A stretch of DNA of 47,370 nucleotides from a virus. Under the pieces are notes generated by a model, which made no database searches, was not told the origin of the DNA, and saw only the letters and a list, made by a program, of their open reading frames with translations. This document shows positions 2,857 to 46,571 of the stretch, piece by piece. The stretch spans positions 1 to 47,370 of the IMG/VR virus record IMGVR_UViG_3300036819_000339, one strand, 5' to 3'. Positions within the stretch are counted from its first letter, which is position 1. Every line of letters starts with the position of its first letter. The position numbers were made by a program, and so were the translations under genes.

Positions 2857-3510
2857 ATGCCTCCAAACGAACCCTATCAACGCCGTCGCTACGTACCGCC
2901 GGAATATCTGCGGCCATCCGTAACCTCGAGCCCAAATCCTGCGCAGTCCGGAGCATCGCCGTTATCCGAGCAGCCGCTTACCCCGAATACGCCATCCTAC
3001 GATCATGTGCCTATCCAGCGACACTCTAGGATCGTCCTCCTCGATTTTTTGCGAGACCGCATTGCTCCGCCTACCCCACCCACTTTTCCCGATATTGAAG
3101 GCATAGACTGGCGCTTCGATGATTTCGAGCGCTCAGACGATAATGAAGTCAGGCTGTATCTCTACCTTTCACCGGAGTACGTCGGGAAGACGCAATATTT
3201 TGGCATCGAGCACGAGGTTTTTGAGAAAGAACCCGTGGCCGACGAGGTGACGCTTCAACGGATCGAAGAGACGATGCAGCACGAAATCGCCGCTGCACCA
3301 AGCCCACACTACCGAGCAGCGCTGGAGCTTGAGCACGAAGAAATGCGGCGCTGGCTTAGTGGCCAGACAATGGGCCTTACAATCGCCAATTATAGAGCGT
3401 TTCCGTTCCGCAGAAATTTTCCTGATCGGCTTCGAGCGATGCTAGGGCGGCAGAAGCTCAACAAGATCATGAGTGATCTGAAGAAAAAATTGGATGACGT
3501 GAAGCGATGA
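2857..3510 (+). CDS. Unknown protein upstream of the coupling-type ATPase, 217 aa
   Basis: Residues 1-55 are Pro/Ser/Thr-rich and probably disordered. The rest is charged and mostly helical, with an acidic stretch (RFDDFERSDDNEVRLYLYL) and a basic C-terminal end (MSDLKKKLDDVKR). The stop overlaps the ATPase start by 4 nt (ATGA), so the two proteins are made together and may interact. I do not recognise the family. Confidence 0.65.
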   Translation: MPPNEPYQRRRYVPPEYLRPSVTSSPNPAQSGASPLSEQPLTPNTPSYDHVPIQRHSRIVLLDFLRDRIAPPTPPTFPDIEGIDWRFDDFERSDDNEVRLYLYLSPEYVGKTQYFGIEHEVFEKEPVADEVTLQRIEETMQHEIAAAPSPHYRAALELEHEEMRRWLSGQTMGLTIANYRAFPFRRNFPDRLRAMLGRQKLNKIMSDLKKKLDDVKR

Positions 3511-38812: not shown

Positions 38813-39330
38813 TATAATTAAAACGCCTCTTTTGAAACGAGATGATTGGAAATATGCGGGCGTGGCGGAATAAGGTAGACGCACGACCTCGTCGAAAGAT
38901 GAAAGAGTGAGCCTTGAACAAGCTCATGCGAGGTGACTATACGAGTAAGTGCTTTAGGAGCTTGGTGTTCCCTTGATCCGAAAAGTGACTCGTCAAATCC
39001 TCGCCGCCCGCATATTTCCAATCATCAAAAGCCCACAGGGGTACAGATGCGAAAGGGCGGGAAATGAGACAACCGGCTCACCGCCCCATCTGATCTGTAT
39101 CTCTGTGAAAATGTGGTTTGAGGAGTTGGGTACATGCGGGCTGCTTTGCTCGCAAAGGAGTTCCAATCCTCGCGACGAACAATGCAACGTCGCGTGCCTG
39201 CCCCTTCAAATCAACGGCTCAGACGCACTCACGGCCCTTAAAAGAGAAAGGCTCGGCGTTCCCGACCCTCTGTCTGTATAGTTTCCTTGCCACCTCTTCC
39301 TCAGTTTCTGGGGATCAGAGGTAGCCGGTT
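38813..39330 (+). ncRNA. Large structured non-coding RNA candidate with tRNA-like 5' part
   Basis: TATAAT at 38813-38818 predicts a start near 38826. A perfect 22-bp helix pairs 38841-38862 with 39005-39026. Inside lie a D-arm-like GCG/CGC stem with a GAATAAGGTAGA loop (38865-38882), triloop hairpin CGAC/GTCG (38884-38894), TGAGC/GCTCA (38908-38926), GCGAGG/CCTCGC (38928-38933/38999-39004) and ACGAGT/ACTCGT (38941-38946/38988-38993). The next domain stacks CAGATG, GGGCGG and TGAG against CTCA, CCGCCC and CATCTG (39044-39092). Others are GAGGA/TCCTC (39120-39124/39167-39171), GCGGGC/GCTCGC (39136-39153), CGCGACG/CGTCGCG (39171-39194) and a final two-part hairpin (39293-39323). No open frame explains it. 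Confidence 0.7.
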
Positions 39331-43937: not shown

Positions 43938-44846
43938 ATGAAGAACCAGTTATTTGTCGGCATCTCAAGAGAGGTCCCCATACAAAAAGGCGGCTTTCTT
44001 CTCATTGAAGACGAACCGCGCGCGGCCTCACAAGTCCGAATATTCGACCCGAACATTCACTCTTTCAACATCCTCGAAGGCTTGAACTACCGGAGAAAGT
44101 GCGACATCGTAGAGACCATCGACGCTCTCTTTACACGCGGCGAAAGCACCCTCACGAAAGATACCGGCCTCGACTTCATCGCCGACGCACTCGATGGCGC
44201 GACTTCGCTCGAAACGCTGATAGAGCCGCCGGATAAAAAATCAACGACCGGACATATTTGGGCATACGGGAAAATCAACCGGCTCATGCGCTCGCCCGTG
44301 CTCCGCAAGATGCTCTGCAACGAGACGAACTTTTCATTCAATCCACGCTCGAAGATCATCGCCCGCGTCAACCGCGCAGAACTCGGGTCATTTGATGCCT
44401 TGGCAGTTGGCCTCTTTCTCATCAATCAGTATCGCGGCCAAATCATCATCTCCGACTTTGGTTTTTATGCCCGCGAGATGCACGCTACCCTCTTGCACGA
44501 GCACCGTCTGATAGCAGGTGTTAACTTCCTCGACGAGCTGCCGCCGAAGCTCCGAAGTCTCGCCCTCCTCGCTGACATCATCCCGAGTGGCGCACGCTTC
44601 GACGACGCCGAGGAACTAGCGCACGCCAGAGGCCACCAGCGGGGCACAGTCGCTTTTAATGACTACAGGGACGCCGGTATGCGGGTACGTCCTCTTCCGC
44701 CGCCACAGCGCACTACAGCGCGTCTGGAGCGCACGCGGAAATTCGCCGCGAAGGAGCGGAAGCAGGTAGCGGCAGGAGCGCAGAAACCCCGCCGGAAATT
44801 TGAGGGTGGCACCACCTGGAGCGCGCCGGATGCGAGGGGATGGTAG
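43938..44846 (+). CDS. P-loop-less VirD4/HerA-like ATPase relative
   Basis: 302 residues. Segments after the nucleotide site match the ATPase at 3507: RIFDPNIHSFNILEGL (34-49) like NP/FN motifs of coupling ATPases, IIARVNRAELGSFDALAVGL, a Walker-B-like IIISDFGFYA (~178-187), and RLIAGVNFLDELPPKLRSLA. Walker A (GxxGxGK[ST]) is absent, so it should not hydrolyse ATP by the usual route. Basic tail (PPPQRTTARLERTRKFAAKE) suggests nucleic-acid contact. Could be a regulatory or dominant-negative subunit; function unknown. Confidence 0.55.
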   Translation: MKNQLFVGISREVPIQKGGFLLIEDEPRAASQVRIFDPNIHSFNILEGLNYRRKCDIVETIDALFTRGESTLTKDTGLDFIADALDGATSLETLIEPPDKKSTTGHIWAYGKINRLMRSPVLRKMLCNETNFSFNPRSKIIARVNRAELGSFDALAVGLFLINQYRGQIIISDFGFYAREMHATLLHEHRLIAGVNFLDELPPKLRSLALLADIIPSGARFDDAEELAHARGHQRGTVAFNDYRDAGMRVRPLPPPQRTTARLERTRKFAAKERKQVAAGAQKPRRKFEGGTTWSAPDARGW

Positions 44847-45953: not shown

Positions 45954-46036
45954 TACTGGCAGATGAAGGAGAGCGGCACCGCTGACTAAGCCAGCGCTTC
46001 GACCCGCCGCCTCTTTCATTGCTCGTTGACATAAAG

Positions 46037-46417
46037 CATTCAGGTTCCTACGGGGGAAAGCAGAAACGGCAAAAATCCGATAGAGCCGTCACCGCGCACG
46101 GATTTCCCCGCAGGAACATGAATGATAGTTGTGAGCGTAAACCGTGGGCTTCCAAAGAGCCGATGTGCAGGAAGCATCTGGCCCGGCATAAATAAATCGC
46201 GGCTGATGAGGGTATAACGGACCCGAAACACGCAAGTGTACCGCGGAGTGGCCCCTGCCGGGGAATAACTGGCCACCAGTCGGCTCACGGTTTACGCTCA
46301 CAACATCATAGCGAACAAGCACGCCCCGGAGCAGCGGAGTGCGACTTGTTGCAATCGTGGTGCGTTTGGAGGGGGATGCAGCTTCGCGCCCAAACGCTGT
46401 GCCTAAAGCGCTTTAGG
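46037..46417 (+). ncRNA. Large structured non-coding RNA candidate with pseudoknot
   Basis: Domain 1: CATTCA, GTTCCT and GGGG (46037-46055) pair with CCCC, AGGAAC and TGAATG (46106-46124). Inside, ACGGC (46066-46070) pairs with GCCGT (46085-46089) and AAATCCG (46073-46079) with CGGATTT (46099-46105), an interleaved pseudoknot. Domain 2 is closed by a perfect 19-bp helix (46128-46146/46286-46304); inside are CCCGGCA/TGCCGGG (46182-46188/46256-46262), CGCGG/CCGCG (46198-46245), GGGT/ACCC and ACAC-GCAA-GTGT (46228-46239). Domain 3: AACAAG/CTTGTT (46314-46350), GCGTTTGG/CCAAACGC (46362-46397) and the palindrome CCTAAAGCGCTTTAGG (46402-46417). 46418-46571 has one more pair, TGCTGG/CCAGCA, and no gene. 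Confidence 0.7.
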
Positions 46418-46571
46418 AAATGAAAGGGAACAAGGTATGACCGCTCATTGATGTCTTACAACTGCGTTCACGGCTTCCCCTCCCAGCGCATCACACAAAT
46501 TAAAAGCCTTGCGCGTTTTCTGCTGGTCACTTACAAGGCGGCCAGCACAGAGCGATAAACAAATTATTCCT

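Follow-up and report, generated by a model that had tools for sequence, protein, structure and literature searches.

A phage RNA with a covarying double pseudoknot and an inserted predicted hammerhead ribozyme

Positions 46128-46304 (+ strand) of the window, the whole 47,370-nucleotide stretch of DNA analysed here, encode a member of a conserved family of phage RNAs, whose fold, shown by sequence comparison, is a double pseudoknot (helices P2, P3, P4 and PK2) closed by a long stem, P1, and carrying an inserted hammerhead module. The reading we favour, at a probability of around 70 per cent, is that of a separate phage non-coding RNA that would be released with tRNAs, or in the manner of tRNAs, and whose own predicted ribozyme would open the chain at one joint. 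The source record is a 47.4-kb tailed phage with integrase, terminase, portal, capsid and tail genes. The family is absent from Rfam 15, the inserted hammerhead module itself being of a known kind; the Rfam search, a check proposed in the earlier note on this DNA, was run with the window and a hammerhead-free member and returned no matching family even at E<=10. No description of the family was found in the open-licence papers searched. In the earlier note the region was drawn as an ornate RNA of three domains that no reading frame fits, its features including a nested helix, a pseudoknot and a closing stem of 19 bp. Such an RNA is present and its pairs are preserved in homologues; of the three domains only the second has relatives, and as judged from these the conserved RNA is that domain alone. 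Its two pseudoknots and the hammerhead had been overlooked. A protein-coding alternative was rejected, there being no open reading frame of >=80 aa on the + strand, and an overlapping 82-aa frame lies on the minus strand while the pairs and the ribozyme are on the +. No sigma-70-like promoter was found upstream of the RNA.

The core helices are best described through an alignment (A1) of 36 in-line members, tested against the named structure. P2 pairs GCUUCC (46148-46153) with GGAAGC (46170-46175), with 99.1% of cells paired and 5 of 6 pairs changed on both sides, and its loop holds GAGCCGA (46157-46163), the 5' strand of PK2, which reaches UCGGCUC at 46280-46286 (90.7% of cells paired; 7 of 7 pairs changed on both sides). 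P3 joins CCCGGC (46182-46187) to GCCGGG (46257-46262) in the P4 loop and is paired in 100% of cells, with GC, UA, AU and CG found at its variable positions, and P4 joins GUGGCC (46248-46253) to GGCCAC (46271-46276) at 99.5%, with 3 pairs changed on both sides. The conserved pseudoknots are P3 with P4 and P2 with PK2, and not the ACGGC/AAATCCG knot that had been placed in domain 1. Over the whole structure 91.8% of cells are paired as against 36-43% in slid controls, so the proposed check for covariation in relatives came out in favour of the RNA; double-changed cells number 304 versus 91 in shuffles, and the covariation score is 0.572 versus 0.155 shuffled and <=0.125 slid. Compensatory changes occur in A1 at all variable pairs of P2, P3 and PK2, and in 70 members, permuted ones included, P2, P3 and P4 are paired at 94-100% of positions. 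Around these helices lie three invariant boxes: CGUGGG directly before P2 (46143-46148; 36/36 and 13/13 aligned sequences), GGAGU before P4 (46245-46249, part of CGYGGAGU) and the unpaired GAAUAACU (46263-46270), the last two invariant in both alignments. The window RNA has all four covarying helices and the CGUGGG, CGYGGAGU and GAAUAACU boxes. The searches were anchored on CGYGGAGU and GGGGAATAACT, and so all counts are conditioned on that pattern and members lacking the anchors are missed; box invariance is partly by construction, since CGYGGAGU, GAAUAACU and GGGGAATAACT belonged to the pattern. A covariance model built from 34 homologues, with the window left out, has a single match in the window, at 46143-46279 (114 bits, E=1.4e-27).

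P1 is a perfect 19-bp stem in which 46128-46146 is the exact complement of 46286-46304, the strands lying 139 nt apart (140 by the earlier count); 20 Markov copies of the window reached no more than 10-13 for their longest perfect inverted repeat within 300 nt. In 43 of 98 in-line homologues the corresponding position holds a stem of 11-23 bp with another sequence, compared with 1 of 98 flank-shuffled controls. Folding energy tells less of the core than of its surroundings. The stretch 46030-46440 as a whole folds at z=-4.4, with none of 100 shuffles as good, and this signal is due to domain 1 and the 19-bp stem. The unusual folding energy that had been expected therefore holds for the whole stretch and for domain 1 (z=-5.0), and fails for domain 3 (z=-0.34) and for the core without the long stem, which is ordinary at z=-0.63. 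Support for the core comes from covariation, to which an energy test that leaves out pseudoknots is blind.

Domain 1 (about 46037-46125, + strand) is a stable hairpin ending 3 nt before P1; the stacked helices claimed for it are there, and ACGGC/GCCGT and ATCCG/CGGAT interleave in its sequence. No relatives of it were found in INPHARED, nor by pattern in IMG/VR, and as far as testable it seems not to be part of the conserved RNA. It holds a hammerhead-like GAAAGCAGAAAC...GUC. Its reading as a decayed or type II hammerhead was tried and set aside: GAAAGC-A-GAAAC...GUC is alike, but it lacks CUGANGA and no relatives turned up. Domain 3 has a folding energy like that of its shuffled copies and had no relative in the searches, and its supposed 16-bp palindrome, CCTAAAGCGCTTTAGG at 46402, is a palindrome of 16 nt that would give 6 pairs and a loop in RNA. 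Elsewhere in the window a 22-bp perfect inverted repeat surrounds 142 nt (38841-39026) and is probably what the earlier note had counted as its first ornate RNA; 38830-39240 folds at z=-7.4, and inside the repeat GCGGGCGUGGCGGAAUAAGGUAGACGC...CGCCCGC resembles the acceptor and D arm of an interrupted tRNA-Leu, uncalled by ARAGORN. From 46659 to the right end runs a reading frame with many pentapeptide-like repeats (NLKGAYLEGA), which continues off the record.

The inserted module is a predicted type I hammerhead at 46198-46245 (+ strand), with the sequence 5'-CGCGG CUGAUGA GGGU-AUAACGG-ACCC GAA ACAC-GCAA-GUGU A/CCGCG-3', the slash being the predicted cut between 46240 and 46241. In the descriptor match stem I is 46198-46202/46241-46245, CUGAUGA is 46203-46209, stem II is 46210-46213/46221-46224, GAA(A) is 46225-46228, stem III is 46228-46231/46236-46239 and A17 is 46240. 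The CUGANGA, GAAA and UH core and the three stems are thus found in the order C-G-S with stem I open, and the descriptor matches once in the window and in none of 40 Markov windows. The Rfam model Hammerhead_1 (RF00163) had no match in the window at E<=10, and no Rfam family matched above its gathering score; a match to that model is a test against a library and not a defining chemical feature. The module occurs in 94 of 122 distinct homologues, with a CUGAUGA, CUGACGA or CUGAAGA core in 93 of the 94 and, in the other (L096, the IMG/VR counterpart of phage Gaia), a compensated U3-A8 core. Residue H17 is C in 58, A in 33 and U in 3. The G10.1-C11.1 pair, beside the catalytic metal site, is usual for hammerheads and is kept in the window, and 24 of 54 hammerheads of the family are without it, carrying A.A (14), U.U (8) or C.A (2); A.A or U.U in over a third of them is unusual. 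In four members (L017, L064, L076 and L087) the stem III loop is enlarged to about 50 nt. Compensated U3-A8 cores have been reported active in other hammerheads (PMC3088659), and because such a core occurs here and the module is conserved, selection appears to act on hammerhead catalysis.

Searching INPHARED by blastn gave matches in domain 2 only, from the Arthrobacter phages Constance and Karkharias, Pectobacterium/Dickeya phages and Enterobacter phage SDFMU_EhYP, and set side by side these share the hammerhead and the boxes flanking it. Complete pattern scans of IMG/VR found 148 contigs with an exact match to the 3' half (78+70), and further members are seen in the Mycobacterium phages Gaia and phiGD24-3, in Microcystis phage Mwe-JY26 and in phage-plasmids of Acinetobacter and Aquitalea, making the RNA common to well over a hundred otherwise unrelated phages. 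Among 84,980 bacterial species the in-line pattern matched once, in a Rhizobiales MAG contig. Neighbouring genes vary among the annotated phages (scaffold, tail tube, HNH, tRNA), and the 302-aa protein beside the window RNA has no close relatives in IMG/VR.

Classification of the 122 distinct sequences places 74 in line with a hammerhead, the layout of the window, and 24 in line without a descriptor match, a few of these having variant cores; a further 19 are permuted with a hammerhead, 1 is permuted without and 4 are unclassified. The permuted gene opens with the hammerhead and the GGAGU half and finishes with the CGUGGG half, P1 forming a closed hairpin. The chain can be open at either of two joints, J2 at the end of P1 and J1 between P3 and CGYGGAGU, the latter being the hammerhead site in most members, the window RNA included. 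Pattern scanning for a hammerhead at the symmetry-related J2 found none, the module being seen at J1 only. Hammerhead-free members keep every core helix and box, and since some in-line members are among those without a hammerhead the cut at J1 cannot be essential everywhere. By pseudoknot order the two halves are topologically equivalent, each hairpin loop pairing with the tail of the other half, and their boxes correspond (CGUGG-GU...AC-AUCUGG and CGYGGAGU...AC-CUAGG); plain alignment of half against half gives a modest mean of 5.06 against a shuffled maximum of 4.43. We infer that the halves are related by duplication. A tentative extension, which could well be wrong, is a pseudo-two-fold-symmetric RNA of two swapped half-pseudoknots whose working form would be open at one of two equivalent joints, the opening being made by the hammerhead, by flanking tRNAs or by permutation of the gene, with the hammerhead-split form as an intermediate to natural permutation.

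A link to tRNAs is apparent within 1 kb of family members, where all 196 tRNAs share the strand of the RNA. In four members (L036, L116, L131 and L197) the gap is 1-2 nt, the RNA lies between tRNA-Ser and tRNA-Trp in phiGD24-3, among 16 tRNAs in Mwe-JY26 and beside tRNA-Ser in Gaia; such adjacency, common without being a defining feature of the family, is found in a minority, most members having no tRNA within 60 nt. ARAGORN called no tRNA in the window, where the tRNA-Leu-like stretch lies some 7 kb from the RNA. Neither the length of P1 nor the presence of the hammerhead is explained by tRNA adjacency, there being no correlation in either case (Fisher p=0.57 and p=0.40). The permuted copy without a hammerhead (L179) has a tRNA CCA end directly before it and a tRNA-like gene directly after it, and in two Acinetobacter phage-plasmids (L215 and L217) a tRNA stands directly upstream of a permuted copy in which the hammerhead GAAA has become AAAA; the latter two records bear a phage terminase and are typed as mobilizable plasmids, likely phage-plasmids. 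Judging from these cases, tRNA processing may be able to replace the hammerhead in forming the 5' end, and given the lack of correlation any such interchangeability rests on the two permuted cases.

Comparison of close relatives also bears on how the RNA is gained and lost. Constance and Judy share flanks, and the RNA with a tRNA-like unit is inserted in Constance only; the same site is empty in Judy and Peas and is taken by a tRNA-Gly in ChuckDuck and Eileen. Uncalled tRNA-like stretches with T arms flank the Constance RNA (L005; about 2905-2970 and 3110-3175), and the second travels with it. In Koutsourovirus a leader/trailer helix, GUAAGAGCAUUG/CAGUGCUCUU, encloses the permuted hammerhead RNA in SDFMU_EhYP and an unrelated stretch of about 41 nt in phiKDA1 and Entb_48 (L138 and L145), upstream of tail tubular protein A; both inserts are absent from Pec and KKP 3828. 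On the strength of these same-site swaps the RNA is read as behaving like an exchangeable cassette of tRNA-like loci.

Set against known systems, the module is like type I hammerheads (RF00163) in its complete CUGAUGA/GAAA/UH core, its stems I-III and its open stem I, and differs in being grafted on a conserved double-pseudoknot RNA, in lacking a match to the Rfam model and, among relatives of the window RNA, in often having A.A or U.U at 10.1/11.1. The hammerheads of Perreault et al. 2011, such as that of phage PaP3, lie in phage intergenic regions and have pseudoknots near stem I (PMC3088659), both of which are shared with the window RNA. PaP3 and Bcep176 were rejected as family members, no signature of the core being found in either, and the PaP3 candidate at 44106 (-) stands alone. 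The theta ribozymes of gut phages are self-cleaving, have an HDV-like fold and also abut phage tRNAs (PMC10879173), whereas the present RNA carries a hammerhead and has the helix order 2,PK2,2',3,4,3',4',PK2' in place of the HDV-like 1,2,3,3',1',(4,4'),2'. Two-piece (permuted) tmRNA is likewise a single fold that a circularly permuted gene can encode or two pieces can make up (PMC10085705); the window RNA differs in having no tRNA-like end or tag and in being opened by a built-in predicted ribozyme, and ARAGORN and Rfam found no tmRNA in the window. Natural permutation is also known from type II hammerheads and the non-circularly permuted HRIMA-1/SGC hammerheads (PMC10085705), in which the hammerhead itself is permuted, unlike the present family, where it is the host RNA that is permuted around an ordinary type I hammerhead. 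Compared with GOLLD and ROOL, ornate phage RNAs tied to tRNAs, the window RNA is far smaller (about 105 nt plus the ribozyme), and neither had an Rfam match in the window.

The favoured course of events would begin with the hammerhead cutting between 46240 and 46241 to leave a 5'-OH at CCGCGGAGU and a 2',3'-cyclic phosphate. The pieces would be held together via P1, P3 and PK2, and the mature RNA would for that reason be a two-piece complex. Outer ends may be made by tRNA-processing enzymes where tRNAs flank the RNA and, where they do not, as in the window, may be protected by the long P1 stem; in permuted relatives the 5' end at J1 would be made by the hammerhead or through the adjoining tRNA. 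The most likely role, offered with caution, is that of a stable RNA acting in trans during infection, one that is acquired and lost along with tRNA cassettes.

Quite another possibility is that the hammerhead processes mRNA in cis, cutting a polycistronic transcript while the core serves only to shield the new ends or to make the ribozyme faster, no separate RNA being made. A 5'-OH end and a knotted 3' end are plausibly resistant to decay, and the scarcity of tRNAs within 60 nt of most members fits such a role, as do isolated hammerheads that flank phage and prophage genes, for which a role in cutting long phage transcripts into mRNAs has been proposed (PMC3088659). It is nonetheless judged unlikely, for the whole core, all helices and boxes, is conserved in hammerhead-free members, neighbouring genes differ as noted, and in tRNA arrays 1-2 nt, and no mRNA, separate the RNA from tRNAs. 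Conservation of the core without any hammerhead tells equally against an allosteric ribozyme in which the core, as an aptamer for a small molecule, a tRNA or a protein, would gate cleavage at stem I; the grafting of the hammerhead exactly onto core helix P3 and the invariance of the unpaired CGUGGG, GAAUAACU and GGAGU boxes, as in ligand-binding RNAs, speak for it, yet the downstream gene is not consistent and there is nothing constant to regulate, leaving this reading very doubtful.

That the core is itself a theta-like ribozyme, cutting at its own 5' edge to free the 3' end of an upstream tRNA and with the hammerhead as an extra, is a shade more doubtful again: in several phages a tRNA 3' end does lie 1-2 nt before the start of the core, and the tRNA-associated theta ribozymes do cut at tRNA 3' ends (PMC10879173), but the helix order is unlike that of the HDV fold, no Rfam HDV-like model matched at E<=10 and many members have no upstream tRNA. 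Fortuitous complements in a GC-rich intergenic stretch, or a repeat artefact, would account for the ordinary folding energy of the core by itself; this explanation has a negligible chance of being right, refuted as it is by the covariation and the model search, with the 19-bp stem also against it.

The family adds a widespread and strongly conserved RNA class to the phages and phage-plasmids of actinobacteria, cyanobacteria and proteobacteria. It gives at least some phage hammerheads a testable purpose, namely the splitting of another structured RNA or the making of its ends. Since the same fold occurs naturally in one piece, in two pieces and in permuted form, evolution by circular permutation becomes directly testable. 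Among laboratory phages Gaia (M. smegmatis) and Constance (Arthrobacter) are carriers, and Judy, a close relative without the RNA, is a natural control.
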